The notes beneath the pieces were generated by a model. That model saw only the letters and a program-made list of their open reading frames with translations, did no database searches and had not been told where the DNA came from. A program made the position numbers and the translations under genes. From the NCBI GenBank assembly GCA_025451275.1, contig JANWKR010000089.1:1-35767 (forward strand): 35,767 nucleotides of DNA. Direction: 5' to 3'. Below are positions 1,774 through 18,260 of the stretch, piece by piece. How positions within the stretch are numbered: the stretch's first letter is position 1; each line of letters starts with the position of its first letter. Source of the stretch: Steroidobacteraceae bacterium (GTDB lineage: Bacteria; Pseudomonadota; Gammaproteobacteria; Steroidobacterales; Steroidobacteraceae).

Positions 1774-3135
1774 TCAGGGCGCGGTGAGCTCGAGGGTCGA
1801 GCCGGCCTGGTTCACGGTAGTCAGGACGATCGGGCGGCGCCAGACGCGCTGAACGTAATCCAGTACCTTACGGCTACGCTCCAGGTCCAGCCCACGCCCG
1901 TCGACGGCGCTGTCGTGCGCCAGCTCGAGCGTGCCGTCATTGCGCACCTTCACGGCCGACACGATGGGCGCGCCGAAATTGTATTTGGGCGCCAGCACCG
2001 CCTCGTGCAGCGCATTCAGGTCCTGCTCGAGCACCTTGATCTGCCCGTCGCTGCGCGCGCTGTAGCGGAACATGCCGAGCTCCTCGGCCAGCTCGCGCGT
2101 CAGGTGATTGCGTACGAAAGCGAAGTCGTCGTCCTGCTCCATGATGGCGCGGGCGGCCGCGAGCCCGTCCTGCTCGACGATCTTCTCCCACATGACAAAG
2201 CCGAGGTGGTACGGGTTGATGCTGAGCGCCACCTGCTGCTCGGCGGCGATCGGACGCACCACGTCCGAGTGGCACTTGATCGCATCCACGTACGCCTGCT
2301 GCGGCACGAAGTCCGCCTCGCGCAGCAGCCGCGCGTGCCAGTACGAGGCCCAGCCCTCGTTCATGATCTGCGTGGCGAACACCGGGTAGAAATAGAACGA
2401 CTCCTCGCGCACGGCGAGGAAGATGTCGCGCTCCCAGCTCTCCATGTCCGGTGAGTAGTGCGCCAGGAACCACAGCAGGTCCTTCTCCGAGTGCGGCGGA
2501 ACCGGCGCCCGCCGGCGCGCCTCGGGGGCCGCGCTCGCCGCGGCCGGCTCGAGCGCGGCGAAGCGCTTGCGGAAGGTGTCGTCGACCAGCGCCTTCGGGT
2601 CCTCGGCGTACTCGGGGTAGCGCGGCCGGCGCAGCGGCACGTCGACGTCGATGTGCTGCTCGAGCGCGAGCGCGGCATCGAGCACCTGCTCGACGCGCTG
2701 CGCGCCGTGGGTCTCGATCGCCGCCGAGATCTGGCGCGCGTGATTGGCGGCGTGCTCGACGATGCGCTCGCTCACCTGCTCCTGGCAGCGCCTGAACAGC
2801 AGGTTGTTGCGCGAGAAATCGGCGTGACCGAGCACGTGCGCGGTCACCAGGATGTTCTCCGCCAGGCCATTGCTCTCGGCCAGGTAGGCGTGGCCGGGGT
2901 TGCCGGGGAACACCACCTCGAACAGGCGCGAGTGCCCCATGTGGCGCTGGATCAGCTGGTAGATGTAGCGCACGCCGAAGGACCAGTGCGGCATGCGTAC
3001 CGGCAGCCCGTAGACGGCGATCTCCATCATGAAGCTGTCGGGCACCGCCTCGAAATCGACCGGGTGGAACTTGAGGCCCTGGGCGGCCGCCAGCTCCTCG
3101 ATGCGCCGCGTGTAGTCCTGCCAGCTGCCGCTCAC
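1774..3135 (-). CDS. SpoVR family protein (YcgB-like)
   Basis: This 453-residue cytoplasmic protein belongs to the SpoVR/YcgB family. Family features include an N-terminal WQDYTRRIEELA region, HWSFGVRYIYQL, the FPGNPGHAYLAESN stretch, and NEGWASYWHARLL near the middle. Bacillus SpoVR takes part in spore cortex formation; in Gammaproteobacteria its biochemical role is unknown, but it travels with prkA and yeaH in a stress-induced operon, as here. The frame stays open well upstream, but those codons lie antisense-free inside the preceding gene in another frame. I place the start at the GTG at 3135 because it overlaps the upstream TGA as GTGA, a coupling pattern seen five times in this window, and because homology begins there. 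Length is slightly short of E. coli YcgB (about 510). Confidence 0.93.
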   Translation of the reverse strand: MSGSWQDYTRRIEELAAAQGLKFHPVDFEAVPDSFMMEIAVYGLPVRMPHWSFGVRYIYQLIQRHMGHSRLFEVVFPGNPGHAYLAESNGLAENILVTAHVLGHADFSRNNLLFRRCQEQVSERIVEHAANHARQISAAIETHGAQRVEQVLDAALALEQHIDVDVPLRRPRYPEYAEDPKALVDDTFRKRFAALEPAAASAAPEARRRAPVPPHSEKDLLWFLAHYSPDMESWERDIFLAVREESFYFYPVFATQIMNEGWASYWHARLLREADFVPQQAYVDAIKCHSDVVRPIAAEQQVALSINPYHLGFVMWEKIVEQDGLAAARAIMEQDDDFAFVRNHLTRELAEELGMFRYSARSDGQIKVLEQDLNALHEAVLAPKYNFGAPIVSAVKVRNDGTLELAHDSAVDGRGLDLERSRKVLDYVQRVWRRPIVLTTVNQAGSTLELTAP

Positions 3136-4340
3136 GGGCTGTCCTGCGCTGGCGGCGCGGCCGGGGCAGGCGCGGCGTCCGGCACCTGTGCCTCGGCGGT
3201 GAAGAAGTGGCGCACCGCGCCCCACACGTCGTCGAAGTCGTTGAGCGCGTAGGAGCCGGCGGCGCAGCCGGAGGACTGCAGCTCCGCGAACAGCTTGCCG
3301 GTCTCGGTGGCGAGCTGGCGCGACAGGCCGGAAGACACCTCGACGTAGCCGGTGAAGCAGGTGTCGGCGGCGATGCCGGCGAGTGCGCCACGCGCTTCGG
3401 CGGCATCGCTCACCGAGTTGTCGCCGTCGGAGGCGTAGAACAGGTAGATGTTGGCCCGCCCGGGGTTGTAGCGCGCGTCCATGATCTCGCGCACCTTGAG
3501 CAGCCCCGTGGAGGCGACCGTGCCGCCGGTGCCGGACACCTGGAAAAAGTCCGGCTCGCTGAACTCCCACGCCTCGGTGGTGTGCGCCACGAACACCGTC
3601 TCGAGCGAGCGGTACTCGCGCCGCAGGCCCTGCACCACCCAGAAGAAGAAAGTCTTGGCGAGCTTGCGGTCGCGGTCGGACATGCTGCCCGACACGTCCA
3701 GCATGAAGAACACCACCGCGTGCACCGCCGGCTGCTTGCGCCGCGCCAGCTGCCGGAAGCGCAGGTCCTCGTCGGTGAAGGTCGGGGTCGCGCCCGGCGC
3801 GCCGCGCCGCTTCACCAGCTCCTTGAAGGAGCGCCGCCGGTCGAGGCGCGAACGCGCGCCGCGCCGGTCCCAGCCCTCGCGGATCCAGTCGCTGTCGTCG
3901 GAAGGACCGGTGCGCGCCTTGAGATTGGGCAGCTGCATCTCCTCCCACAGCCAGTCGACGATGTCGTCGACCTTGAACTCGAGCAGCAGCTGCATCTCGC
4001 CCTCGTCACGGCCGCCGGCGCCCTTCTCGCCCGGTCCCTGGTCGCGCGACGGATCGGCGAGCACGTCGCCGGGCTTGGCCTTGCCCTGGCCCGCGCCCTG
4101 CTGCTCCTCGGGACGGCGCAGCCGGAAGTGATAGTGCTCGAGCATGCGCACCGGCACGCGCACGGTGCGGGCGCCGTCATTGATGACTTCGCCGCCGGCG
4201 ATGATGTCGGGGAGATTGGCGCGCACCGCCTCGCGGATCTTCTCGTCGTGGCGCAGCCAGTCGCGCGCGCCGCGCGAGAACAGCTCGTACCATTTCGCGG
4301 CGCCGGGTTTTTCGCCGCGCTTGCCGCCCGCTTCGTCCAT
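3132..4340 (-). CDS. YeaH/YhbH family protein (DUF444) with VWA-like domain
   Basis: The product has 402 residues. A basic N-terminus and a charged, Gly-rich linker (about 78-115) precede a von Willebrand A-like domain with the metal-binding motif DVSGS (215-219), a GTGGT loop (270-274) and SDGDN (304-308). This is the DUF444 family (E. coli YeaH, Bacillus YhbH). It lies 32 nt after prkA, and its TGA overlaps the SpoVR start, so all three are probably cotranscribed. YeaH-like proteins are thought to act with the PrkA kinase in starvation and stress responses; the substrate or partner cannot be seen here. An AAAAGGAG element lies upstream of the ATG at 4340, at a rather long spacing of about 12 nt. 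Confidence 0.93.
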   Translation of the reverse strand: MDEAGGKRGEKPGAAKWYELFSRGARDWLRHDEKIREAVRANLPDIIAGGEVINDGARTVRVPVRMLEHYHFRLRRPEEQQGAGQGKAKPGDVLADPSRDQGPGEKGAGGRDEGEMQLLLEFKVDDIVDWLWEEMQLPNLKARTGPSDDSDWIREGWDRRGARSRLDRRRSFKELVKRRGAPGATPTFTDEDLRFRQLARRKQPAVHAVVFFMLDVSGSMSDRDRKLAKTFFFWVVQGLRREYRSLETVFVAHTTEAWEFSEPDFFQVSGTGGTVASTGLLKVREIMDARYNPGRANIYLFYASDGDNSVSDAAEARGALAGIAADTCFTGYVEVSSGLSRQLATETGKLFAELQSSGCAAGSYALNDFDDVWGAVRHFFTAEAQVPDAAPAPAAPPAQDSP

Positions 4341-4372
4341 GCGCTACTCGTACTCCTTTTCGGAGCGCGGCG

Positions 4373-6331
4373 CTACTCCTGGGCCAGCAGTGTGGTGACG
4401 TAGCTCAAGGCTTCCTTGGCGCTGTGCTCATCGTAGCCGTACTCGGTCACCAGGCGCTGCTGCACGACGGAGATCTTCTGGCGCGCGTCGTCGTCCGGGC
4501 GCGCCGTGGAAGTCACCAGGCGCAGCACGTCGCGGCGTTCCTCGAACAGATACTGCTCGATCGCTTCGCGCATGCGGGCGTGACTTCCCAGCTTGAACTT
4601 CTCGCCGGCCTTGAAGGCCACCATGGCCTTGCGCACCACCTCCTGGCGGAACGACTGCTTGCCGGAGTCGGACACCTTGATCTTTTCCTCGACCGAGCGC
4701 AGGAAGCGCTCGTCGGCGGGGCGGTTCTCGCCGGTGATCGGGTCGGTGACCTGGCGGTGATCGAGCGAGGCCTCGACCTCGTCCAGGTACTTCTCCAGCA
4801 GCTGCTGCGCCTCGGCCTCGAAGGAAGCGAACATGGCGCGGTGCACGTCCTCCTTGACCCAGCGGTTGTAGAATTCCTTGCGCGCCGTCACCAGGTGGTC
4901 GATCCAGGCTTTCTTCTGCTTGGCGTCCATGCGCGCATCGCTCTCGATCGAATCCTTGAGCGCCAGCAGCAGCTCCATGCTGGTGAGGCTGTGGGTGTTG
5001 CCGCGCGTGATGGCGTTGGAGATGGCATTGATGACGAAGCGCGGGCTGACCCCGTGCATGCCCTCGTCGGGCGCTTCGGCGTGCAGCCGCGTGCCCTCGG
5101 TCTCGGGCACGCCCTCGACCGCCTCGCCGGCGTAGACGCGCAGCTTCTTGGCCACGTCCAGCCCCTCGCGCTCGGGCTTCACCAGGCGCGTCAGGATGGC
5201 GAACACCGAGGCGAGGTTGAGCACGTGCGGATCCAGGTGCACGTTGCGGAACGCCGGGGCGCCGGATACCAGCTTCTGGTAGATGCGCGATTCGTCGCGG
5301 TAGGACAGCGCGTAGGGGATCTTGATGATCACCATGCGGTCCAGCAGCGCCTCGTTCTCCTTCTCCTGCAGGAACTTGTGGAACTCGGCGAGATTGGTGT
5401 GCGCCAGGATGGTCTCGTCGAGGTGGATCAGCGGGAAGCGCGACACCTTGACGTTCTTCTCCTGCGTCAGGGTCAGCAGCAGGTAGAGGAACTCGCGCTT
5501 GACCTTCAGGATCTCGATCATCTCCAGCACGCCGCGGCTGGCGGCGTACACCGCGCCCGACCACGACCAGGCACGCGGGTCGCCCTCGTCGCCGATCTGC
5601 GCGACCTTGGCCAGGTCCACCGAGCCGACCAGGTCGGCGATGTCGGCGGTGGTCGGGTCGTGCGGCGCGTAGGTGCCGATGCCGACGCGCGAGGCCTCGG
5701 CGAGGAACACGCGCTCCACCGGCACCCGCTGCAGGTCGCCCTCGAACTCGCGCTCGACGAAGTCACGGGCCCACGGCGACAGCTCGCCCTGGATGTTGAC
5801 GCCGTAGCGCTCGCGGAACTCGGGACGCAGGCTCATGGGGATGAGGTTGAGCGGGTTCTCGCGCAGCGGCGAGCCGCGGATGGCGTACAGCGCGCCTTCG
5901 TCGGTACGGCTGTATTCCTCGAGCCCGCGCTTGAGCAGGATGGCGAGCGTCGACTTGCCGCCCGAGGGCGGCCCGAGCAGCAGCAGCAGGCGCCGCCCGA
6001 CGTCGGAACCTGCGGCGGCCGCCTTGAAATAATCGACCACGCGCGACAGCGGCTCGTCGATGCCGAACAGCTCGCGCTTGAACAGCTCGCGCGCGCGCAT
6101 GCTCTCGGCGGCGTCGGTCTGGCCGGCGCGGCCGTGCCAGCGCAGCATGTCCCAGATGTATTCGTGACTCGAGCGCGCCAGAGCGGCGGGATTGGCGGGC
6201 AGGATGCTGGCGATGAAGTCACCGAAGGTGCCTTCCCAGCGCTGGGCGCGGTGCAGGCGGCTGAACGAGCTCAGCGTTTCGATGAAGTCGGCGGTGGTGC
6301 CGTGAGGAGTCTGGTCAACAGCGAGTCGCAT
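4373..6331 (-). CDS. prkA: PrkA family serine protein kinase
   Basis: The product has 652 residues, close to E. coli YeaG (644). The N-terminal half is the AAA-like PrkA domain with a Walker A motif GPPSGGKS at 120-127. The middle contains LILHLDETILAH-type and IIKIPYALSYRDESRIYQ family signatures, and the C-terminal third is the PrkA kinase-like domain. Family members phosphorylate proteins on serine and are induced by starvation or stationary phase in enterics; targets here are unknown. The ATG at 6331 follows a strong GGGAGGAAAGG Shine-Dalgarno tract. It heads a three-gene operon with the YeaH-like and SpoVR-family genes, the same order as the conserved stress module elsewhere. Expression is probably controlled from the AT-richer patch about 70-170 nt upstream. 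Confidence 0.95.
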   Translation of the reverse strand: MRLAVDQTPHGTTADFIETLSSFSRLHRAQRWEGTFGDFIASILPANPAALARSSHEYIWDMLRWHGRAGQTDAAESMRARELFKRELFGIDEPLSRVVDYFKAAAAGSDVGRRLLLLLGPPSGGKSTLAILLKRGLEEYSRTDEGALYAIRGSPLRENPLNLIPMSLRPEFRERYGVNIQGELSPWARDFVEREFEGDLQRVPVERVFLAEASRVGIGTYAPHDPTTADIADLVGSVDLAKVAQIGDEGDPRAWSWSGAVYAASRGVLEMIEILKVKREFLYLLLTLTQEKNVKVSRFPLIHLDETILAHTNLAEFHKFLQEKENEALLDRMVIIKIPYALSYRDESRIYQKLVSGAPAFRNVHLDPHVLNLASVFAILTRLVKPEREGLDVAKKLRVYAGEAVEGVPETEGTRLHAEAPDEGMHGVSPRFVINAISNAITRGNTHSLTSMELLLALKDSIESDARMDAKQKKAWIDHLVTARKEFYNRWVKEDVHRAMFASFEAEAQQLLEKYLDEVEASLDHRQVTDPITGENRPADERFLRSVEEKIKVSDSGKQSFRQEVVRKAMVAFKAGEKFKLGSHARMREAIEQYLFEERRDVLRLVTSTARPDDDARQKISVVQQRLVTEYGYDEHSAKEALSYVTTLLAQE

Positions 6332-7002: not shown

Positions 7003-9093
7003 GTGGCCAGTGCACCTTCTGCATCCCGCAGCCCGGCAGCTTCGGCCTCGGCAAGCGCAGCTCCAGTCGCCCAGCCGAGCGCGGACATCACCGCGATCAC
7101 CACCCATGACGACTTCCTGCTCGAGCTCGGACAGACGCTCGGCGGCCAGGCGGGGGTGCGTCCGGTCGACTCGGTCGAAGCCGCGCTCGAGAGCCTGAAG
7201 CACGGCAAGCGCGGGCAGGTGCTGGTCATCGATGCGCGCGACGTGCGCGACGTGCGCGCCGCGGTCGACGCCACGCACGCGGCAGCCCCGCGCGCGGTGC
7301 TACTGGTATTCGCCGAGGGTGCCGCCGAGAAGCAGCTCGGCGCGGCACTCAAGGGCAGCAGGGTATTCGCCGTGCTGCCGACCCCGATCGACGTTCGCAA
7401 GACCCAGGCGGTCCTCGAGGGCGCGATCGCCGAGGCCACGACTCACAAGGCGCCGGCACGCCCCGCCGCCCCGGCCGCCGACCTCCCGATCGGCGCCTTC
7501 CGGCCGCAGACCTCCGCGGAGGCGGCCGCGGCCGCCGACAGCGGCGACGCCGACCGTCCCAGGCGCCTGCCGCTCGGGCTGATCGCCGCCGCCGCGGCGG
7601 CGGTGGCGCTGGCCGGTGGCGGCTACTGGTTCTTCACGCGCAGCAGCGCGGCGCCGGCCGCAGCGAGCGCCGCGCCCGCCACGCCGGCTGCCGGCACCGC
7701 TGCGCCCGCCGACAACGCGGCGCCCGCCGCACCGGTGGTCGAGACCTCGCTCGTCAAGGGCAAGGTCGACGAGCTGCTCGAGAAGGCGCGCCTGGCGATG
7801 CACGAGCGGCGCTTCACCGAACCCGCCGGCGACAATGCCCTGCTCTACTACCGCTCCGCGGCCGTCGCCGACGGCGCCAATGCCGAGGCCCACGACGGGC
7901 TGCAGCGCGTGGCGGGCGTCCTCGCCGGGCGCTTCGAGGAGGCCGTGAGCGGCGCCCGCTTCGACGAGGCGGCGCAGACGCTCGCCAATTTCAAGGCCGC
8001 CACGCCCGAGGATGCGCGCGGCGCCACCTTCGAACAGCGCCTGTACGCCGCTCAGGTGGCCAAGGCGTTCGCCGACGGCAACACCGACCGCGCCGCCGCG
8101 CTGGTGCGCCAGGCGCAGCAGTCCGGCAGCGTGCCGGCCGACCAGCTCGCCAAGTGGCGCGCCGACGTCACGCGTCACCAGGAGGAGGCCAAGCTGCAGC
8201 GTCTCGCCGGGCTGGTCGAGGACCGCATCCGCGACGGTCACCTGGTGGATGCCGACGACAGCGCCAAGAGCTACCTGCAGCAGCTGCAGGCGGCGGCAGC
8301 ATCCAATCCCACGACCACGCGCGTTGCGCACGAGGTCGTGGAGGCCTACCTGCGCAAGGCGCGCGAGGCCGCGCTGGCCAAGAACAACGCCGACACCGAC
8401 CGCTGGCTCAACGAGGCCCGCGCCGCCGGCATGAAGCAGTCCGAGGTCACCGCCTTCCAGCGCGACCTCAACAACGCGCGCCAGAAGGCTGCGCAGGTAG
8501 AGAACGAGCGCGTGCTGCAGCAGGCGCGCGCGGCGCTGCGCGACGGACGCCTCACCGACCCGGCGCAGGAAAATGCCGCCGCCTACCTGGCGGCGCTGCA
8601 GGCCAGCGACCCGAACAACGCCGGCCTCGCCGAGGCTGGCCGCGATCTGTCCGGCAAGCTCCTCGACCGGGCGCGCGGCGCGGTGCTGGCGGGCAAGAGC
8701 CCGGACGCCGACCTGGCGCTCGCCAAGCGCTGGGGCGCGGACCCCAGGGACATCACCGCCGTGCAGCAGCTGCAGAGCGCGCCGAAGGGCAAGAGCGCAG
8801 CGGTCGATCCGGCGACGCTCGCCGCCAGCCTCAAGCGCACGCGCGCTGTGCCGCCCGACTATCCGCCCAACGCCATGCAGCAGCACATCTCCGGCAGCGT
8901 GGTGGTGGAGTACACCGTCGACGCGCGCGGTGAGACACGCGACATTCACGTGGTCGAAGCCACCCCGCCGGGGGTATTCGACCAGGCCGCGATCAATGCC
9001 GTGCGGCACTGGCGCTACACGCCGGTGCTGGTCAACGGCAGCCCCGTCGAAGTACCGACGCGCACGCGCGTGCGCTTCGAGCTGCCCAAGTAG
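7003..9093 (+). CDS. TonB-family protein with N-terminal degenerate receiver-like domain and internal helical repeats
   Basis: Start choice is uncertain. The GTG at 7003 has GGAG at 6990-6993, 9 nt upstream, while a TTG at 6976 would add 9 residues without a ribosome binding site. Numbered from 7003 (696 aa), the protein has a Ser/Ala/Pro-rich start, an alpha/beta domain (about 35-145) resembling a two-component receiver, an Ala-rich linker, one membrane segment (about 190-211), and a long presumably periplasmic helical region with three related repeats. It ends in a TonB C-terminal domain (about 610-696) with PPDYPPNAM, GSVVVEYTVD and NAVRHWRYTP. In the receiver-like domain VLVIDARD could supply the phospho-acceptor Asp, but the conserved Lys-Pro of strand 5 reads Thr-Pro, so phosphorylation is doubtful. 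It precedes the CheA-like kinase by 18 nt, so the two are probably cotranscribed. No ExbB/ExbD genes are nearby. Confidence 0.88.
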   Translation: MASAPSASRSPAASASASAAPVAQPSADITAITTHDDFLLELGQTLGGQAGVRPVDSVEAALESLKHGKRGQVLVIDARDVRDVRAAVDATHAAAPRAVLLVFAEGAAEKQLGAALKGSRVFAVLPTPIDVRKTQAVLEGAIAEATTHKAPARPAAPAADLPIGAFRPQTSAEAAAAADSGDADRPRRLPLGLIAAAAAAVALAGGGYWFFTRSSAAPAAASAAPATPAAGTAAPADNAAPAAPVVETSLVKGKVDELLEKARLAMHERRFTEPAGDNALLYYRSAAVADGANAEAHDGLQRVAGVLAGRFEEAVSGARFDEAAQTLANFKAATPEDARGATFEQRLYAAQVAKAFADGNTDRAAALVRQAQQSGSVPADQLAKWRADVTRHQEEAKLQRLAGLVEDRIRDGHLVDADDSAKSYLQQLQAAAASNPTTTRVAHEVVEAYLRKAREAALAKNNADTDRWLNEARAAGMKQSEVTAFQRDLNNARQKAAQVENERVLQQARAALRDGRLTDPAQENAAAYLAALQASDPNNAGLAEAGRDLSGKLLDRARGAVLAGKSPDADLALAKRWGADPRDITAVQQLQSAPKGKSAAVDPATLAASLKRTRAVPPDYPPNAMQQHISGSVVVEYTVDARGETRDIHVVEATPPGVFDQAAINAVRHWRYTPVLVNGSPVEVPTRTRVRFELPK
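7774..8619 (+). repeat. Three diverged protein-level repeats inside the TonB-family gene
   Basis: Three segments of about 35 codons are recognisably related: MHERRFTEPAGDNALLYY (around 7798-7851), IRDGHLVDADDSAKSYL (around 8230-8280) and LRDGRLTDPAQENAAAYL (around 8536-8589). Each is followed by an Ala-rich helix and an Asn/Asp-containing turn. Spacing is unequal (about 430 and 310 nt), and DNA identity is low, so these are old domain duplications rather than recent DNA repeats. They probably build a TPR-like helical rod in the periplasm. Confidence 0.6.
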
Positions 9094-9111
9094 AACAGGA
9101 GACTCTCCGCC

Positions 9112-11265
9112 ATGACCTTCTCCGGGACAGAGCGTCGCCGCCAGCTGGTCACCGCCGGTATCGGCACGGCGCTGACGCTCGTCATGGGCGCGGTGCTGAT
9201 CATGGGCTTCCGACTGGCGACGCACATGCGCGCCAGCATCAACGCGCTGCAGACCGCGAGCGCGCTGCAGGCCTATCCCGAGGAAATCTCGCGCCAGATC
9301 AATTCGCTGCGCGATCGCCTCGAGGTGCGTGCCTACTCCGGCCAGGCGCTCGCCGACCTGCAGGGCACGGTGACGCGCTTTGATCAGGACCTGAAGCAGC
9401 TATCGGCCTCGGGGGAGCGCTCGCCGCAGCTCGGGCGGGCGCTGCTGCTGTGGCACCAGTACGGTCCGGTGATCGAGTCGGTCGTGATTTTCAACGGCCA
9501 GCCGTATGTCGACTCGGACACCGCCGGCAGCTCGCTGTCGCGCGAGGGTCGCGAGCATTACGCCGCGGTCAAGCGTGCGCAGCTGTTCGCCAGCGACAAC
9601 GCCAAGGCGCTGCAGGAGCAGCTGGCGGCGCTGGCCACGACCCTGCAGCGGAACTCCTCCGACGCCGCCGCGCACCTGCGCACCCTGCTGCTGGCCGGCG
9701 TGCTGGCGGCGCTGGTGCTGGCCGCCGCCGCCGCCTACTTCCAGCTGACCCGCTCGCGCCACGAGCGCGCCGCGCGCGACGCCCAGGAGCAGACCCGCGA
9801 CATCCTCAAGACGGTGCGCGAGGGCTTCTTCCTGCTGGACGCCAACTACCGCATCGGCTCGGTGTGGTCGGAGGCGCTGACGCGCATGTTCAGCCGCGAG
9901 GACTTCGCAGGCCTCACCTTCGAGGAGCTGCTCAAGGACCTGGTGCCGTCGGCGACCCTCGCCACCGCCACCAAGTACATCAAGCTGCTGTGGGGCGAGC
10001 GCGCCCACGAGAACCTGATGAAGAGCATCAACCCGCTCGGGCAGCTCGAAGTCACGATGGACAACGGCCACGGCGGCAAGGAGACCCGCTACCTGCAGTT
10101 CGACTTCCACCGCGTGATGGGCACGGAGGGCATCAAGCACGTGCTGTGCGCGGTGGGCGACATCACCTCCAGCGTGCTGCTGGCGCGCGAGCTGCAGGAG
10201 TCGCAGGAGAACGCCAACGCGCAGCTCGACATGATGCTCGGCATGATGCACATCGATCCGCTGCAGCTGGTCTCGTTCCTCGACACGGCCGAGACCGGCC
10301 TGAAGCTGGTCAACACCATCCTCAAGGATCCGGCGCGTACCGACCAGGAATTCCGCAAGAAGCTCGCCGGCCTGTTCCGCGAGCTGCACTCCATCAAGGG
10401 CGAGGCCTCGGTGCTCAACCTGACGAGCATCGCCAGCCGCGTGCACGCGCTCGAGGACATGGTGGGCGAGTGCAAGAAGAAGAAGGAGCTCTCGGGTAAC
10501 GACTTCCTGCCCATGGTGCTGAAGCTCGACGACCTGCTGGCGCACCTGCGCAGCGTGCGCGAGATGGCCGCGCGCCTCACGGCGCTCAAGGACACGATAC
10601 CCGGTGCCGCCGCGGCCGCCGCGGCCGTCGAGCAGCGCTCCCACAAGTCCGCGCCGCCCGCCGGCGCCCCGGAGCGCCCGGCGGTGCGCCCGGTCGAGGA
10701 TCTGTCGCCGGCGCTGCAGTCGATGGCGGCGCGCCTCGCCCAGGACCACGCCAAGTGCATCAAGCTGACGCTGTCCGGGCTCGGTGACGTGCCGGCGCCC
10801 TACGCCGCGACCATCAAGGACTGCCTGATCCAGATGCTGCGCAACGCCGCGGTGCACGGCATCGAGGCGCCGGAGGTACGCCGCGCCCAGTCCAAGGACG
10901 ACACCGGCGTGGTGCAGGTCCTGTTCCACAAGGTGACCGACGGCTACGAGCTGGTATTCGAGGACGACGGCGCGGGCATGGCACCCGAGACGCTCAAGGC
11001 GGCCGCCATCAAGAAGCGCATCATCACGCCCGAGGAGGCGGCCGGCATGGACACCCGCGCGGCCATGGCGCTGATCTTCCGGCCCGGCTTCTCCACGCAG
11101 CAGGACGTGTCGATGGACGCCGGCCGCGGCGTCGGCATGGACGTGGTGGCGCGCTCGGTCTACGCCCTCGGCGGCAAGATCGGCGTCAGCACCCATCCGG
11201 GCAAGTTCACCCGCTTCAAGATCGTGCTGCCGTCGGCCGAGGCCGTCAGCACCGCGGTGGCCTGA
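9112..11265 (+). CDS. Membrane-bound CheA-like hybrid kinase (sensor - PAS - HPt - HATPase)
   Basis: The product has 717 residues and an AGGAG at 9098-9102, 9 nt before the ATG. Two membrane segments (about 14-34 and 191-210) flank a periplasmic sensor region. A PAS-like domain follows (about 230-350), ending in HVLCAVGDIT. An HPt domain carries the phospho-acceptor histidine H426 in ELHSIKGEAS. An Ala/Pro linker (500-530) leads to a CheA-type HATPase with N box LRNAAVHG (576-583), G1 box EDDGAGM (617-623) and G2 box GRGVGMDVV (671-679). It would autophosphorylate H426 and pass phosphate to a receiver, most simply the CheY-like protein encoded 3 nt downstream. Unlike true CheA, the HPt lies in the middle after a transmembrane sensor, and no CheW-like P5 domain follows the ATPase, so it is not expected to dock onto chemoreceptor arrays. 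Confidence 0.92.
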   Translation: MTFSGTERRRQLVTAGIGTALTLVMGAVLIMGFRLATHMRASINALQTASALQAYPEEISRQINSLRDRLEVRAYSGQALADLQGTVTRFDQDLKQLSASGERSPQLGRALLLWHQYGPVIESVVIFNGQPYVDSDTAGSSLSREGREHYAAVKRAQLFASDNAKALQEQLAALATTLQRNSSDAAAHLRTLLLAGVLAALVLAAAAAYFQLTRSRHERAARDAQEQTRDILKTVREGFFLLDANYRIGSVWSEALTRMFSREDFAGLTFEELLKDLVPSATLATATKYIKLLWGERAHENLMKSINPLGQLEVTMDNGHGGKETRYLQFDFHRVMGTEGIKHVLCAVGDITSSVLLARELQESQENANAQLDMMLGMMHIDPLQLVSFLDTAETGLKLVNTILKDPARTDQEFRKKLAGLFRELHSIKGEASVLNLTSIASRVHALEDMVGECKKKKELSGNDFLPMVLKLDDLLAHLRSVREMAARLTALKDTIPGAAAAAAAVEQRSHKSAPPAGAPERPAVRPVEDLSPALQSMAARLAQDHAKCIKLTLSGLGDVPAPYAATIKDCLIQMLRNAAVHGIEAPEVRRAQSKDDTGVVQVLFHKVTDGYELVFEDDGAGMAPETLKAAAIKKRIITPEEAAGMDTRAAMALIFRPGFSTQQDVSMDAGRGVGMDVVARSVYALGGKIGVSTHPGKFTRFKIVLPSAEAVSTAVA

Positions 11266-11268
11266 GTC

Positions 11269-11664
11269 ATGAGCAGCAGCGCCCGCGCCATGAACGGCAA
11301 GCGATCCTTCAAGCTCATGATCGTCGATGACTCGAACATCATGCGGCGACGCATCGAGCGCTCGCAGCAGTTCGAGGAGCTGGAGCTGGTGGGCAGCGCC
11401 GCCAACGGCGTCGACGCCCTCGAGCTGTTCAAGAAGACCGACCCGGACGTCGTCACCATGGACCTCACCATGCCGCGCATGGACGGCATCGAGTGCATCG
11501 GCCGGCTGGTGGCACTCAAGCCCGCGGTGCGCATCCTGGTGATCTCCGCGCTCGCCGACAAGGCGACCGCCGTCGAGGCAATGGAGAAAGGGGCCAACGG
11601 CTTCCTCAACAAGCCGTTCACCGACCGCCAGCTCAACGAGGCGATCGCCGAGTTGATGCGCTAG
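11269..11664 (+). CDS. CheY-like single-domain response regulator
   Basis: This 131-residue protein is one receiver domain. It has the acidic pair D20-D21 (IVDDSN), phospho-acceptor D65 (VTMDLTMPRMDG), S93 (VISA) and K115 (NKPF), so the full active site is present. There is no output domain, so it should signal by binding a partner protein. The ATG at 11269 lies 3 nt after the kinase stop. A second in-frame ATG at 11290 would remove an unneeded seven-residue start. Context makes the upstream HPt/HATPase protein its likely kinase and the downstream CheX-like protein its likely phosphatase; both are inferences from gene order. Confidence 0.94.
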   Translation: MSSSARAMNGKRSFKLMIVDDSNIMRRRIERSQQFEELELVGSAANGVDALELFKKTDPDVVTMDLTMPRMDGIECIGRLVALKPAVRILVISALADKATAVEAMEKGANGFLNKPFTDRQLNEAIAELMR

Positions 11665-11678
11665 CAGGTAGCAGAACG

Positions 11679-12125
11679 ATGCTGTACGAACAGGAGCTGA
11701 AGACTTTCGTCGAGGGGACGACGAACTTCTTCGAGGTGGCGGCGCAGCAGCCCGCCTCGATCGGCTCGCCGTACCTCATGGAAGGCTCGCCCGCGGTGCA
11801 CGAGTACACCGGGGTCATCAATATCTCCGGCAAGCGCGAGGGGGTGGTGTACTTCACCGCACCCAAGGCCATGCTGACGGTGCTGCTGATGAAAATGCAG
11901 GAAAACGACTTCAGCCACGAGACCATGCGTGACCTGGTCGGCGAGGTCGCCAACACCATCTCCGGCAATGCACGCCGCGACTTCGGCCGCGACTTCGTGA
12001 TCTCCGTGCCGAGCGTGCTCACGGGCGAGAAACCCGATATGCCGCACCGCCCCGGCGTGCGCTCGTTCATCATCCCCATCAACTGGCGCAGCCACTCCGC
12101 GAAGCTCGTGGTATCGCTCACCTGA
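11679..12125 (+). CDS. CheX-like phosphatase domain protein
   Basis: This 148-residue protein resembles chemotaxis protein CheX, which dephosphorylates CheY-P. The catalytic signature of the CheC/CheX/FliY group is visible as D85-x3-E89-x2-N92 (DLVGEVAN), followed by a proline at 111 in ISVPSVL. The N-terminal half contains the expected sheet region (EYTGVINISGKREGVVYF). The ATG at 11679 follows the CheY-like stop by 14 nt with only a weak AGGT-type binding site. The frame stays open upstream inside the previous gene, but homology starts here. As the last gene of the cluster it would switch off the CheY-like signal. It converges on kdpE. Confidence 0.87.
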   Translation: MLYEQELKTFVEGTTNFFEVAAQQPASIGSPYLMEGSPAVHEYTGVINISGKREGVVYFTAPKAMLTVLLMKMQENDFSHETMRDLVGEVANTISGNARRDFGRDFVISVPSVLTGEKPDMPHRPGVRSFIIPINWRSHSAKLVVSLT

Positions 12126-12166: not shown

Positions 12167-12880
12167 TCAGCCCGCCGTGCCCGGCTCCTCATCGGTGCGC
12201 AGGCGGTAGCCGATCCCGGTCTCGGTGACCAGGTAGCGCGGCTGGCGCGGATCCGGCTCGAGCTTGGCACGCAGGTTGCGGATGCAGACCCTGAGACTGC
12301 GTGAGTCGTCCTCCCGCTCCGGCCCCCACACCTCCCGTATCAGCTGCTGTTGCCGCACGATCGAGCCGAGCTGGCGCGCCAGGCACTCCAGCACCCGGTA
12401 TTCGAGCGGCGTCAGGTGCAGCTCGCCGTCCGGCCCGCGGCTCTCGCGCCGCGCCAGGTCGACGCGGCGCCCTCCGAACTGCAGTAGCCCTTGCGGGCTC
12501 GTGCCGCGCACCTGGCGGCGCAGCGCCGCGCGCAGCCGCGCCAGCAGCTCCGGCGCGCTGAAGGGCTTGGCGACGTAGTCGTCGGCGCCGGCATCGAGCG
12601 CCGCCACCTTCTGCTGCTCGAGCGTGCGCGCCGACAGCACCACGATCGGCACCGGCGACCAGGCGCGCACGCGGCGGATCACCTCAAGTCCGTCGCCGTC
12701 CGGGAGCCCCAGGTCAACCAGCAGCAGGTCGGGCTTGTGGCTGCGTGCCTCAATCTCGGCCCGCTGTGCCGTCGCCGCCTCGATGCAGCGATAGCCCTGC
12801 GCCTCGAGCAGCACGCGCAGCACGCCGCGGATCGCGGGCTCGTCCTCGATCACCAGCACCTGGTGCATCGCCTGGGTCAC
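12167..12880 (-). CDS. kdpE: KdpE, potassium-responsive OmpR-family response regulator
   Basis: The product has 237 residues from the GTG at 12880, which overlaps the kdpD stop as GTGA and has GGAG 8 nt upstream. An ATG at 12868 (233 residues) is the alternative. The receiver domain has E12-D13, phospho-acceptor D56 (LLVDLGLPDGDG) and K105 (VAKPF). A winged-helix DNA-binding domain follows (about 140-232), with LTPLEYRVLECLA, QLIREVWGPE and TETGIGYRL, all close to E. coli KdpE. Phosphorylated by KdpD, it should activate the kdp operon promoter. It is the last gene of the operon and ends 20 nt from the hairpin that follows the convergent CheX-like gene. Confidence 0.96.
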   Translation of the reverse strand: MTQAMHQVLVIEDEPAIRGVLRVLLEAQGYRCIEAATAQRAEIEARSHKPDLLLVDLGLPDGDGLEVIRRVRAWSPVPIVVLSARTLEQQKVAALDAGADDYVAKPFSAPELLARLRAALRRQVRGTSPQGLLQFGGRRVDLARRESRGPDGELHLTPLEYRVLECLARQLGSIVRQQQLIREVWGPEREDDSRSLRVCIRNLRAKLEPDPRQPRYLVTETGIGYRLRTDEEPGTAG

Positions 12881-15570
12881 GGCGCCCGCTCCGCCGTGGG
12901 CAGCGTGAACATGAAGCGTGCGCCGCCCTGCTCGCGGCGCTGCGCCTCGATCTCGCCCCCGTGGGCGTGCACGATGGCCTGGCAGATGGCAAGTCCCAGG
13001 CCCACGCCCATGACGCTGCCCTCGCCGCTGCCGCGCTGGAACTTGTCGAACAGCCGCGCCGGATCGCCGGGCGGCAGGCCCGGCCCGTCGTCGTCCACGG
13101 TGAGGCGCACGAACGCGCGGTCGGCGTCGACCGCGGCCGTCACGGTGGTGCGCGTGCCCGGCGGGGTGTACTTGGCGATGTTGTCGAACAGATTGGCGAA
13201 CACCTGCACGATCAGGGTCGCGTCCACCCACACGGGCGGCAGGTCGGGCGGCAGGCGCAGCTCCACGGGGTGCGCGGCGAGCCGCGTGGCGTAGGCGGCG
13301 AGCGCGCTGCCCGCGAGGTCATCGAGCGTCTGCCAGTCGCGCCGCAGTGCCGCCTGGCCGGACTCGAAGCGCACCAGGTCGAGCACGTTGGACACGAGCT
13401 CGGACATCTCGCGCGCCGTCGTCTCCACCTGGCGTGCCAGCCGCACGCGCGTCGCTTCGTCCAGCCCCATGCCGTGCTCGGCGAGCGTGCTGCCGGCGCC
13501 GGCCATCACCGCCAGCGGCGTGCGCAGATCGTGCGAGATGGATGCCAGCAGCGTGTTGCGCAGCGTCTCACGCTCGGCGGCGAGGCTCGACTGCTCGGCG
13601 AGCTCGGCAAGCCGCGCGCGCTCCAGGGCCAGGGCGATCTGCCCGGCAAAGGTCGACAGCAGGTGGCTCTGCTCCGGCAGCAGCACCCGCCGCGCCTGTT
13701 CCGGCAGCACCGCCAGCACCCCCACCGCGCGCCCCTCCTCGCCGAGCGGCACGTACAGGCCGCGCGCCGCCGGCAGGGTGTCCGCGCCCAGGCCAGCGCG
13801 CCGGCTGTGATCGGCCACCCACTGCGCCACCGCGAGATCCGCGCCGCGGAACGAGCTGTCGAGCGCCGCCTCGGCCGGGTAGCGCAGCTTGCCGTCCGCG
13901 TCCGGCAGCAGCACCACCGCCTGACACTGGAACACTTCGGCGACGTGGCGCACCGCCACGCGCGCCATGGGCGAGGTGCCACGCGTGGCGGCGAGCTCGC
14001 GGCTCATGGCGTACAGCAGCGCCGTGCGCCGCTCGCGCGCGCCCGCCACGCGTGTCTGCTGGCGCACGCTGGCGGTGAGCGTGGCGATCACCAGCGCGAT
14101 GGTCACCATGGTGCCGAAGGTCACCAGGTACTGCACATCGGAGACCGCGAACGAGTAGCGCGGCGGCACGAAGAAGAAATCGAACGCGGCGACGTTCAGC
14201 ACCGCGGTCAGCGCCGAGGGCCCGCGTCCGAGACGCAGGCCCGCCACGGTCACGCCGAGCAGGTAGATCATCACGAGGTTGGACAGCTCGAAGTGCCGGT
14301 ACATGGCGAACGCCAGCAGCGTGCACAGCAGCGTGGTGAGCCCGGCCCAGGCGTAGCGGTCCCAGCGCAGCGCGCCCGCCGGCAGCGCGCTCGGGCGCGA
14401 CCGCGGCGCGGTACCGGCGCTGGCTGCGATCAGCAGCACGTCGAAGCCTTGCGCGCGCCGCACCAGCTCGGTCGCGGTCGAGGGCCTCAGCCAGGCGCGC
14501 CAGCCGCGCCGCTTGGGCTCGCCGACGATGACGCGCGTGGCGTGACGCACGCGTGCGTACTCGACCAGGGTGGCCGCGGCCGAGGGGCCGTCGAGGGTCA
14601 CGCTCTCACCGCCGAGAGACTCGGCGAGCCGCAGCACCTCGATGCGCCGGTCGCGGTCGCGCTCGGCCATGCGCATCAGGCGCGGGGTCTCCACGTACAC
14701 CACGATCCACTCGGCATCGAGCGCGTCCGCGAGGCGCCGGCCGGCGCGCACCAGCTGCTCGGCCTGCGCATCCGGACCCACCGCCACCAGCACGCGCTCA
14801 CCCGCCAGGCGCGCCGGCACCGGGCCGGCCGGCAGCGCCCGCGCCGCGGCCTCGACGCGGTCGGCGACGCGGCGCAGCGCAATCTCGCGCAGCGCCATCA
14901 GGTTCTGTTTGCGGAAGAAGCGCTCGGTGGCGGCAGTGGCCTGATCGGCCACGTACACCTTGCCGGCGCGCAGCCGTGCGATCAGGTCATCCGGCGGCAG
15001 GTCGATCAGCTCGATGTCGTCGGCTTCGTCGAAGACGTGATCCGGCAGCGTCTCGCGCTGGCGGATCCCGGTGGTCTGGAACACCAGATCGTTGAGGCTC
15101 TCCAGGTGCTGCACGTTGACCGTGGTCCAGACGCTGATACCCGCGTCCAGCAGCTCGGCGACGTCCTGCCAGCGCTTGGGATGGCGCGGCACCGGCACGC
15201 CGCCGGTGATGTTGGAGTGCGCCAGCTCATCCACCAGCAGGATCTCGGGGCGGCGCGCCAGCGCCGCATCCAGGTCGAACTCCAGGCGCACGATGCCGCG
15301 GTAGGCGACCGGCAGCGGCGGCAGCCGGGTCAGCCCCACGAGCAGCCGCTCGGTCTCGACGCGTCCGTGCGGTTCGACATAGCCGACCAGCACCTCGGTG
15401 CCGCCTGCCAGCGCGCTGTGCGCCGCCTCGAGCATGGCGTAGGTCTTGCCGACTCCCGCCGATGCGCCGAAGAAAATGCGCAGCCGCCCGCGGCGCTGGC
15501 GCGCCTCCTCGGCTTTGACTTGCTCGAGCAGTCGGTCGGGGTCAGGCCGGGCTTCGGCCATTGAGGTCAC
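12877..15570 (-). CDS. kdpD: KdpD, sensor histidine kinase for potassium limitation
   Basis: The product has 897 residues, matching the family. Domains in order: cytoplasmic KdpD domain with Walker [10 protein letters not shown] (35-43) and Walker B LLVDE (111-115); a universal-stress-like domain (about 255-385); four closely spaced membrane segments (about 405-500); a GAF-like region (about 520-655); the histidine kinase core with H680 in [11 protein letters not shown] box [10 protein letters not shown] (791-800), G1 DDDGPGL (826-832) and G2 GVGLGL (855-860). It autophosphorylates when potassium or turgor is limiting and transfers phosphate to KdpE. I start it at the GTG at 15570, which overlaps the kdpC stop as GTGA; an ATG at 15561 is possible. 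All catalytic residues I checked are intact. Confidence 0.96.
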
Positions 15571-16166
15571 TTCAGCGCATCGAGCGCCAGGTTCAGCTGC
15601 AGGACATTGACGCGCGGCTCTCCGAGAACTCCGGCCAACCTACCCTCGGTGTGCGCGGCAATCAATGCCCGCACCCGCGCAAGGCCGAGACCACGCACGC
15701 GGGCGACGCGCGCCGCCTGGTAGTCGGCGGCGGCGACGCTGATGTGTGGATCGAGTCCGCTGGCGGAAGCGGTGACCAGGTCGACGGGCACGGGCGCTGA
15801 GTTGCCGGGGTCGGCGCCCCGCAGCGCCGCGACCCGCGCCTTGACGGCGTCGGTGAGCGCGGGGTTCAGGGGGCCGAGATTGGAGCCGCTGGAGGCAGTG
15901 CCGTTATAGGGCTGCGGCGCGGTCGCCGAGGGACGGCTCCAGAAGTGCCCGGGATCGCTGAAGGCCTGGCCGATGAGCGCCGAGCCGACCGCGTGGCCGT
16001 CGCGCAGCACGAGGCTGCCGCCGGCCTGGCGCGGAAACAGCGCCTGCGCCAGGGCGGTGACCAGCAGCGGATAGACGAGGCCGGTGAGCACGCTGAGCAG
16101 CAGGAACAGCACCAGCGCGGGGCGCAGCAGAGCCGCAAGGGCGGCAGGGGGTCGGGTCGAGTTCAT
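15567..16166 (-). CDS. kdpC: KdpC, potassium-transporting ATPase subunit C
   Basis: This 199-residue protein has one N-terminal membrane segment (about 13-40, [21 protein letters not shown]) and a periplasmic domain. Family signatures include [32 protein letters not shown] and the C-terminal [11 protein letters not shown]. KdpC stabilises the KdpFABC complex and probably raises potassium affinity of the pump. Its ATG lies 15 nt after the kdpB stop, and its TGA overlaps the kdpD start. Length is normal for the family (about 190-200). Confidence 0.96.
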
Positions 16167-16181
16167 GGGATGAGGCCCCGG

Positions 16182-18248
16182 TTACACCAGATGTGTCATG
16201 GTGAGCGCCAGGTCCACCAGCTTGATGCCGATGAACGGCACGATGACGCCGCCGAGCCCGTACACGAGCAAATTGCGCCGCAGCAGCGTGGCCGCGCCCA
16301 GCGGCCGGTAGCGCACCCCTTTCAGCGCGAGCGGGATGAGCACCATGATGATGAGCGCGTTGAAAATGACCGCCGACAGGATCGCGGAGAACGGGCTCGC
16401 CAGGTGCATGACGTTCAGCGCGTTCAGCTGCGGATAGGTGGTGACGAACGCCGCCGGAATGATCGCGAAGTACTTGGCAACGTCGTTGGCGATCGAGAAC
16501 GTCGTGAGCGCGCCCCGCGTCATGAGCATCTGCTTGCCGGTCTCGACCACCTCGATGAGCTTGGTGGGGTTGGAGTCCAGGTCCACCATGTTGCCGGCCT
16601 CCTTGGCCGCCTGCGTGCCGGTATTCATGGCCACCGCGACGTCCGCCTGCGCGAGCGCCGGGGCGTCGTTGGTGCCGTCGCCGGTCATCGCCACCAGCCG
16701 TCCCTGCGCCTGGTGCTCGCGGATCAGCTGCAGTTTTGCCTCCGGGGTGGCCTCGGCCAGGAAGCCGTCGACGCCCGCTTCGGCGGCGATGGCCGCGGCG
16801 GTGAGCGGGTTGTCGCCGGTGATCATGACCGTCTTGATGCCCATGCGGCGCAGCTCGCCGAACCGCTCGGCTATGCCACCCTTGACGATGTCCTTCAGCT
16901 CGATGATGCCGAGCACCCGCCCCCCGTCGCTCACCACCAGCGGCGTGCTGCCACGGCGCGCGACGTCCTGCACGCTCGCCAGCACCGCCCTGGGAAAGCT
17001 GTGGCCTAGCCCCTCCACCTGCCTGCGGATGGCGTCCGCGGCACCCTTGCGGATCTGGCGCTCGCCGAGATTGACCCCGCTCATGCGCGTGTGCGCCGAG
17101 AAATGCACGAACGAGGCTTTGAGCTGCGCGAGGTCACGTTCGCGCAGACTGAAACGCTGCTTGGCGAGCACCACGATGCTGCGTCCCTCGGGCGTCTCGT
17201 CGGCGAGCGAGGCGAGCTGCGCGGCATCCGCCAGCTCCTCCTCGCTGATGCCGGCTGCGGGGAGGAAGCTCGCCGCCTGGCGGTTGCCGAGAGTGATGGT
17301 GCCGGTCTTGTCGAGCAGCAGCACGTCGACGTCGCCCGCCGCCTCCACCGCGCGGCCGGAAGTGGCGATGACGTTGGCCTGCAGCATGCGACTCATGCCG
17401 GCCACCCCGATCGCGGACAACAGTGCACCGATGGTGGTGGGAATGAGGCACACCAGCAGCGCAATCAGGGCGGTGATGGTGATCGGGGCGCCGAGCCGCG
17501 TCATCGCGACGCTGTAGAGCGAGTACGGCAGGAGCGTCGCAGTCGCGAGCAGGAATACCAGCGTGAGCGCCACCAGCAGGATGGTGAGCGCGATCTCGTT
17601 GGGGGTCTTCTGGCGCCTGGCGCCCTCGACCATGGCGATCATGCGGTCGAGGAAGGTCTCGCCCGGGTTGACGGTGACGCGCACGATGATCCAGTCGGAC
17701 AGCACGCGCGTGCCGCCCGTTACCGCGGAGAAATCCCCGCCGGATTCGCGGATCACGGGTGCGGATTCCCCGGTGATCGCACTCTCGTCCACCGAGGCGG
17801 CCCCCTGGATCACCTCGCCGTCGGCCGGCACGTAGTCTCCGGCCTCGACGAGCACCACATCTGCGCGGCGCAACTCGTCGGCGCGCACGCGCGTGCTGCG
17901 TTGCCGGTCAGCCGGGTCGGCGAGTCGCCTGGCCCACACCGTCTGCTTCAGTCCGCGCAGCGCCGCCGCCTGTGCCTTGCTGCGTCCCTCGGCGAGCGCT
18001 TCGGCGAGGTTCGCGAACAGCACGGTGAACCACAGCCACAGTGCGATGTTGAAGATGAACCAGGCCGGCGCCTCGCCGCGCCCCGCGAGCGCCTGCCCCC
18101 ACAACACGGTGGTGAGCAGACTGCCGATATACACCACGAACATCACCGGGTTGCGCCACTGCACCCGCGGGTCGAGTTTGCGCAGCGCATCCAGCAGCGC
18201 CGGGCCGAGCAGCGAGCGTTCGAACAGGGCGAGCTTACGGCGCGTCAT
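16182..18248 (-). CDS. kdpB: KdpB, P-type ATPase catalytic subunit of potassium pump
   Basis: The product has 688 residues, normal for KdpB (E. coli 682). The actuator motif TGES is at 159-162, the phosphorylation motif DKTGT at 313-317 (D313 is the acyl-phosphate residue) and the hinge TGDGTND at 522-528. Membrane segments are seen at about 35-55, 62-85, 220-245, 255-285 and in the last 100 residues. It hydrolyses ATP in the inner membrane to drive potassium uptake through KdpA. It starts 12 nt after the kdpA stop and shows no loss of key residues. Confidence 0.98.
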
Positions 18249-18260
18249 GCGGCACCCGAG

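Follow-up and report, generated by a model that had tools for sequence, protein, structure and literature searches.

A Candidate Envelope-Signaling Operon of the Steroidobacteraceae That Joins a Kinase, a CheY-like Receiver, and a CheX-type Phosphatase to a TonB-Family Protein with a Predicted Receiver-Fold Head

Introduction

Two-component and chemosensory circuits usually exert their effects through gene regulation, second messengers, or motors. Circuits assembled from CheA, CheY, and CheX or CheC are known both for the organisms that contain them and for their biochemistry, and Muff and Ordal are said to have discussed, in 2008, CheC-type phosphatases that act beyond chemotaxis. In TonB proteins, coupling to ExbB is served by a histidine within the membrane helix. 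Here we describe four consecutive genes, TONB, KIN, REC, and CHEX, found at positions 7003–12125 on the plus strand of a 35,767-nucleotide stretch of DNA from a Steroidobacteraceae bacterium (assembly GCA_025451275.1, contig JANWKR010000089.1). The whole of this stretch is called the window below. The host genome is a 2.49-Mb metagenome-assembled genome (MAG) that is 81% complete, and the window is its contig 89.

The published systems that come closest to this locus are compared here. The CheC/CheX phosphatases are described in PMC10542144. The four-gene unit resembles the CheA–CheY–CheX/CheC circuits in having an HPt domain together with an ATPase domain of the CheA P4 type, a single-domain CheY-like receiver, and a CheX with the catalytic glutamate and asparagine. 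Unlike the kinase of those circuits, KIN combines a membrane sensor of its own with a PAS-like domain and lacks both a CheW-like domain and a detectable P3 domain; neither a receptor nor CheW was matched on its contig. The TonB energy transducers work with ExbB–ExbD, and a D-box is part of the same account (PMC10907165). TONB is like these proteins in having a TonB_C domain and a probable single membrane helix, but it differs from them in its large cytoplasmic head, in a helical solenoid that stands in place of a proline-rich linker, and in the lack of a membrane-helix histidine. None of the four operon genes is ExbB or ExbD, since Pfam families account for all four, although no search was aimed at ExbB or ExbD.

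Two further systems bear on TONB. In Pseudomonas aeruginosa, PocAB–TonB3 ties a TonB-family protein to motility (PMC5285504, there citing Cowles 2013 and Huang 2004). On one of the rival views discussed below, TONB would likewise be tied to a motility function and not to iron uptake. The partners of TonB3 are the ExbBD-like PocAB, whereas those of TONB are a kinase, a receiver, and a phosphatase, in addition to its own receiver-fold head. FrzS contains a pseudo-receiver that lacks the aspartate (PMC1974792), and the head of TONB is similar in being a receiver fold without part of the phosphorylation site. The head of TONB, however, keeps the aspartate, loses the lysine and the acidic pair, and sits on a membrane-bound TonB protein.

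On balance, we favor the view that the four genes constitute an envelope-signaling operon in which a phospho-signal would be sent outward through TONB. The receiver-fold head predicted for TONB is what makes this combination of genes interesting. The component parts are of known kinds, and our searches of the open-licence PMC literature turned up no description of a receiver–TonB protein or output, of the trio, or of this operon.

Results

Gene Unit and Its Conservation within the Family. TONB (7003–9093, 696 amino acids) begins with a GTG codon and encodes a membrane protein that consists of a receiver-like head, a transmembrane segment, a helical repeat, and a TonB_C domain. The start is backed by several homologues that open in the same way, with V-A-S/H/Q. 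It is followed on the same strand by KIN (9112–11265, 717 amino acids), a membrane sensor kinase, by REC (11269–11664), a stand-alone CheY-like receiver, and by CHEX (11679–12125), a CheX-type phosphatase. The intergenic gaps are 18, 3, and 14 bases, and the G+C content at third codon positions is 0.90–0.96 across the four genes. The Pfam matches to TonB_C, Hpt, HATPase_c, Response_reg, and CheX are all above the curated cut-offs. The four closely spaced genes were thus found where the initial annotation of this DNA had placed them.

A pattern scan with a CheX alignment over 84,980 species genomes gave 97 coding stretches, of which the best 80 were kept as loci. The relatives recovered are MAGs labeled Gammaproteobacteria, Proteobacteria, or Steroidobacteraceae and, at greater distance, isolates of Steroidobacter, Povalibacter, and Peristeroidobacter. 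KIN, REC, and CHEX were found in a row in 71 of these 80 CheX-picked loci under a strict rule, and in 77 once those that fail it through a long open reading frame (ORF) start, a contig edge, or a run of N were added. Three of the added loci (L082, L094, and L110) fall outside the strict rule solely through a long ORF start, two (L055 and L061) are cut by a contig edge that leaves the end of the kinase, and in L084 a run of N within the kinase (7177–7276) is an assembly gap that imitates a missing kinase. The remaining three (L076, L085, and L112) start at CheX. TONB adjoins the trio in 63 of the 71 strict loci, upstream of KIN in 53 and downstream of CHEX in 10. In the other eight, the contig breaks off inside the kinase or no more than about 100 bases from its start. 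The downstream arrangement is that of L114–L123, which belong to Steroidobacter, Povalibacter, and Peristeroidobacter together with one near MAG (L114). An extra gene stands between TONB and KIN in L124.

Among the same-genus genomes, 21 of 24 contain a relative of the kinase at E < 1e-200, and the three others are 63–78% complete. The genes that flank the unit vary among the relatives, and the unit itself persists. Judged from these comparisons, the four genes are real and are kept together, in a partnership that, with TONB on either side of the trio, has survived a rearrangement. The initial annotation had named a gene order absent from all relatives as a finding that would tell against it; the search was run, the order proved to be conserved, and the claim was not refuted by it.

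Receiver-Fold Head of TONB. The structure of TONB was predicted by AlphaFold using an alignment of 24 sequences, with an overall predicted template modeling score (pTM) of 0.47. Residues 27–147 (7081–7443) were modeled as five successive strand–helix units, the (beta-alpha)5 arrangement of a receiver, in a head that is predicted to be cytoplasmic; the predicted local distance difference test (pLDDT) values for blocks of residues 31–150 are 86–96. Asp77 (7231–7233) is located at the end of strand 3 (residues 71–77), which is the phosphoacceptor position of receivers, and it is present in 24 of 24 aligned rows. A Foldseek search with TONB returned eight matches at E ≤ 0.001, of which one is a receiver and the other seven are TonB C-terminal domains. 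Residues 24–157 were aligned by VIA with Z values of 15.2–16.4 among the 50 rows listed, nearly all of which are labeled as response regulators or receiver domains. When the 24 heads were compared by hhalign with the REC family of the operon, the probability was 69% (P = 4.5e-5); a control comparison of the main-clade heads with CheX gave 0.2%.

Other residues of the phosphorylation site are less well kept. The acidic pair directly after strand 1 is absent from all 24 rows. The lysine is retained in six rows, all from the Steroidobacter group, and is replaced in the other 18. In the head from the window, as positioned from the model, T33 and T34 occupy the sites of the acidic pair and T127 that of the lysine. 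The Steroidobacter-group heads have both the aspartate and the lysine in 6/6 and the threonine in 4/6, and the five that were run against Response_reg all gave sub-threshold matches (13.3–22.2 vs 30.2 bits, E of 1.7e-4 to 0.096). The sole Pfam match in TONB of the window is TonB_C, without Response_reg. The head of TONB is therefore described as a receiver by its predicted fold and as degenerate by its residues in this genus, for which no claim of phosphorylation is made. The initial annotation had described a TonB-family membrane protein here, and the cytoplasmic head that AlphaFold, Foldseek, and VIA point to was overlooked.

The head is followed by a probable single transmembrane helix (residues 193–212, 7579–7638), which was modeled with low confidence by AlphaFold and coincides with a hydropathy peak that is present in 24 of 24 homologues; none of the 24 has a histidine in this peak. 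Residues 248–592 (7744–8778) were predicted as a TPR-like helical solenoid, presumably periplasmic, with block pLDDT values mostly over 90, and sub-threshold TPR matches were found in paralogues. The TonB C-terminal domain (8851–9084) matches PF03544 with 71.2 bits and superimposes on 6i97_D with a TM score of 0.90.

Kinase, Receiver, and Phosphatase. The AlphaFold model of KIN (mean pLDDT 74, pTM 0.34) begins with a long helix at the N-terminus, continues through a helical region and a second long helix, and ends with a PAS-like fold, an HPt domain, and an HATPase domain. The PAS-like domain (residues 237–350, 9820–10161) is assigned from its topology in the AlphaFold model, and no PAS match was obtained from Pfam at E ≤ 1. 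The HPt domain (10273–10551; PF01627, 33.6 bits) contains the phosphoacceptor H426 (10387–10389). The HATPase domain (10822–11235; PF02518, 49.2 bits) is of the CheA P4 type, and CheA P4 structures in the PDB are the closest structures to KIN, with a profile E of about 1e-50 and a Foldseek TM score of about 0.8. The NCBIfam models for CheA match the ATPase part of KIN with scores that fall far short of the cut-offs (144 bits vs 950 and 99 bits vs 793). H426, K429, G430, and the tested residues of the N- and G-boxes are present in 87 of 87 kinases.

No Pfam match to H-kinase_dim (P3) was found in KIN at E ≤ 1, although a diverged P3 may be present; residues 494–528 have pLDDT values under 50. 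There is also no Pfam match at E ≤ 1 to the CheW-like domain (P5), and the protein stops after the HATPase domain. CheA proteins are built on a core of four domains. KIN was considered as a CheA and rejected because the CheW-like and dimerization (P3) domains were not found, and by the core-domain rule stated in PMC10542144 it is likewise a non-CheA. The label “CheA-like” in the initial annotation holds for the HPt and catalytic domains and fails for the CheW-like and dimerization domains. Its description of a transmembrane PAS–HPt–HATPase kinase is borne out by Pfam for the last two domains and by AlphaFold topology alone for the first. A PilJ-type N-terminal domain was detected in the related kinase of L045 (37.8 bits, above the cut-off), and the kinase of L190 fell just short of the cut-off (26.2 vs 26.6 bits); no match to the PilJ profile was found in KIN of the window or in the kinase of L117. 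These related N-termini suggest that the sensor of KIN began as a PilJ-like helical domain.

REC matches PF00072 with 98.8 bits, and no output domain was found by Pfam. D21, D65, S93, and K115 are present in 95 of 95 receiver rows and D20 in 93. The two rows with glutamate (L076 and L085) are neighboring minus-strand regulators, and D20 is found in 93 of 93 when they are set aside. CHEX matches PF13690 with 67.5 bits, compared with a cut-off of 27 bits, and does not reach the NCBIfam equivalog for the CheX of Thermotogales (27 of 280 bits). Its solved CheX-like relatives are 3h4y, 3hm4, and 3h2d. D85 and E89 are conserved in 99 of 99 CheX sequences and N92 in 97. H426 of KIN, D65 of REC, and the DxxxExxN motif of CHEX (D85, E89, and N92) are all located as first annotated.

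Spread of the Trio. A profile of the kinase was searched against 369 genomes of Gammaproteobacteria. In 12 of these the match was at E < 1e-70 and extended beyond the ATPase domain; below them only the ATPase part was matched, at 1e-46 and weaker. A CheX profile gave E < 1e-25 in the same 12 genomes, followed by 8e-15 and weaker in 18 others. At the level of the order, strong matches were obtained in 14 of 97 genomes. We read 24 regions (L189–L201, L217–L226, and L045) from 22 genomes, picked by a kinase or CheX hit, and the genes for KIN, REC, and CHEX were found in one order and on one strand in all 24. A run of N in the kinase of L200 (8756–8938) is an assembly gap that imitates a split kinase. 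TONB adjoins the trio in six of these regions, all from the family of the window (L189 and L217–L221, with L221 from its genus). A sample of the phylum gave 2 of 398 genomes, both Gammaproteobacteria and one of them the genome of the window, a weak test since two candidates per genome were scored. Outside of Pseudomonadota, coverage was by the CheX pattern scan alone, through the best 80 of its 97 stretches. From the phylum sample the trio appears to be rare. One genome (G125, L198:6742–11852) has two kinase–CheY–CheX trios and a third CheX; the catalytic asparagine is replaced by serine in two of its three CheX copies, and two neighboring genes (291 and 312 amino acids) have no Pfam family above the cut-off.

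Paralogues of TONB and a Receiver–Ser/Thr Kinase. The search with a TONB profile scored at most three candidates per genome, and the spread of receiver–TonB proteins given here is thus a lower bound. The genome of the window contains a paralogue on contig 97 (L239:103–3548). Others were found in G313 (L240) and, as L242 and L243, in trio-bearing f158 genomes. In G030, from the same order, a protein of 963 amino acids (L241:6723–9614) has two Response_reg stretches (46.9 bits) and a TonB_C domain; no strong match to CheX or the kinase was found in that genome. L241 is the sole paralogue to reach the Response_reg cut-off, and the heads of the others are alike by eye.

The paralogue in the genome of the window overlaps by 4 bases with the gene after it, which encodes a receiver–Ser/Thr kinase. 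This pair is present in 6 of the 6 genus copies for which the 3′ end was found. It was read directly in G000, G001, G005, and G016, each with the 4-base overlap and two of the four truncated where the contig stops, and was taken from coordinates in G015 and G019, where partial TONB matches also occur (G015:C108 and G019:C249). Homologues of the receiver–Ser/Thr kinase, 32–42% identical, adjoin the trio in three loci. The gene is downstream in G248 (L190), divergent in G840 (L222), and between TONB and KIN in L124, where the row reads TONB, receiver-like Ser/Thr kinase, KIN, REC, and CHEX. By Pfam, the receiver part clears the cut-off in L239 and L190 and falls short of it in L222 and L124. In L190:7927–12357 the trio is directly followed by the receiver–Ser/Thr-kinase gene, and the N-terminus of the trio kinase is PilJ-like, just below the cut-off. 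As an obligate partner the receiver–Ser/Thr kinase was rejected, with full-length matches in 10 of 57 genomes that lack the trio.

Chemosensory Genes and Flanking Regions. All 8 of the genus genomes that were searched gave matches to MCPsignal and CheW. The genome of the window has one receptor match, which a contig end truncates, and three CheW matches; all of these lie on contigs 146 and 95. One of the CheW matches lies within a cut CheA on contig 95, the C-terminal part of which matches the REC profile. On the contig of the window there is no match to MCPsignal or CheW, and a true chemotaxis operon was rejected on this basis. “Without chemoreceptors,” as first annotated, is therefore correct for the cluster and incorrect for the genome, in which a receptor, CheW, and CheA are encoded elsewhere.

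A scan for promoter-like sites found none. Four terminator-like sites were found, compared with 2.1 ± 1.6 in shuffled sequences, and all four are within coding sequence. On the minus strand at 1774–6331 is a set of genes that we take to be SpoVR, YeaH, and PrkA. This set is divergent and upstream of the unit in most of the genus regions read, and it is not found there in L034 (G002) or in the Steroidobacter group. The PrkA-like neighbor was considered as a fifth member of the unit and rejected, as it does not adjoin the unit in those same genomes. On the 3′ side of the unit, the minus-strand genes at 12167–20063 presumably form a kdp operon (KdpE, KdpD, KdpC, KdpB, and KdpA), which is beside the unit in some relatives and not in others.

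Discussion

In the mechanism that we propose, KIN would sense through a helical region in the periplasm, together with its PAS-like domain, and autophosphorylate H426 of its HPt domain, and the phosphate would pass from H426 to D65 of REC. CHEX would then strip the phosphate from REC, which would make the signal brief and tunable. The phospho-signal would most likely be coupled to the cytoplasmic receiver-fold head of TONB. In this genus, with its degenerate head, coupling could occur by docking of phosphorylated REC or of the kinase. In the Steroidobacter group the head may perhaps be phosphorylated directly, given the aspartate and lysine that are kept in every head there and the threonine in most. 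Such coupling would alter what is gripped at the outer membrane or the wall by the arm of TONB and its TonB tip. The closed relay of kinase, carrier, and phosphatase tied to a TonB-like protein, as initially annotated, is partly supported by these results, in that the unit is self-contained and is linked to TONB by gene order. Points in favor of the proposed mechanism are the constant order of the trio, the strong kinase and CheX matches that coincide in 12 genomes, the adjacency of TONB in 63 of 71 strict loci amid changing flanks, the receiver fold and Asp77 of the head, the sub-threshold Response_reg matches in the Steroidobacter group, the architecture of L241, the pairing of the paralogue with a receiver–Ser/Thr-kinase gene, and the row of five genes in L124. 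The genes, their order and linkage, the catalytic residues, and the fold prediction are thus shown, and the phosphate transfer and removal, the direction of signaling, the topology, and the partner of the TonB tip are inferred.

A broader proposal, which we advance tentatively, is that of an inside-out two-component output. Trans-envelope proteins of the TonB type would be switched through a receiver head, by the kinase, CheY, and CheX in this operon and by the receiver–Ser/Thr kinase in the sister operon, and the phospho-signal would mechanically reach the outer membrane or the wall and not DNA or the flagellar motor.

A number of observations weigh against outward signaling through the head. 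The single receiver that Foldseek returned at E ≤ 0.001 is 3kcn_A (E of 6.8e-4, TM score 0.73), and the further receivers have weaker E values of 0.001–0.01, with probability 1.00. There is no Response_reg match by Pfam in the heads from the window, L124, L126, and L108, and the comparison of the 13 main-clade heads alone with REC gave an hhalign probability of 2% (E = 0.025). The heads of this genus are without the acidic pair and lysine of working receivers. Of the 24 regions read, 18 showed no TONB (among them L191 and L226, each truncated at one end), so that TONB is an optional partner of the trio. The receiver–Ser/Thr kinase, when full-length matches were compared in 80 genomes that we chose, turned up in 10 of the 57 that lack the trio versus 12 of the 23 that have it, counts that are not corrected for kinship. 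Finally, a Chp-like chemosensory system encoded elsewhere in the genome could cross-talk with the trio.

The main rival explanation, which we regard as a rather doubtful possibility, reverses the direction of the signal. TONB would be the arm of a sensor, with the solenoid and tip feeling the outer membrane or wall and the pseudo-receiver docking on the HPt or ATPase domain to set the activity of KIN; REC and CHEX would then relay the signal to some other target, such as pili. In this genus the head is degenerate as a phosphoacceptor, a trait that it shares with known pseudo-receivers like FrzS (PMC1974792). No output domain was found in REC, and the evidence from linkage (63/71 and 24/24) serves such sensing equally well. 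KIN, on the other hand, has a membrane sensor region of its own, the trio exists without TONB in other families, and the Steroidobacter-group heads keep the aspartate and lysine in 6/6, which favors a phosphorylated output over inward sensing.

We consider it unlikely that the trio serves a motility organelle, either type IV pili or flagella, in the manner of a minimal chemosensory system, with TONB as a pilus-assembly factor like PocAB–TonB3. TonB3 of P. aeruginosa is required for twitching (PMC5285504 and PMC6321873), a PilJ-type N-terminal domain is present in a related kinase (L045, with L190 just under the cut-off), and other contigs of the genome encode CheW, a receptor, and a CheA that includes a CheW domain. 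The PilJ profile does not match KIN of the window, however, and no pilus or flagellar gene was noticed beside the unit, most of the flanking genes having had no family search. The last explanation, that of an ordinary two-component trio lying beside an unrelated energy-transducer gene by chance or through short divergence, is very improbable and already disfavored: in other families TONB was not observed next to the trio, but it adjoins 63 of 71 loci on either side of the trio with the other eight cut off, its paralogue is likewise coupled to a receiver-kinase gene, its head has a predicted receiver fold, and chance adjacency was rejected on these 63/71 loci and on the 24/24 trio order.

Conclusions

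We favor, on balance, the outward direction of signaling for this operon of the Steroidobacteraceae. If this is true, a receiver–transmembrane–TonB protein that is linked across many species with its own kinase and phosphatase would provide a direct line from cytoplasmic phospho-signaling to the outer membrane. It would also offer a testable function for TonB paralogues that are not used in iron uptake, and for CheX outside of chemotaxis.

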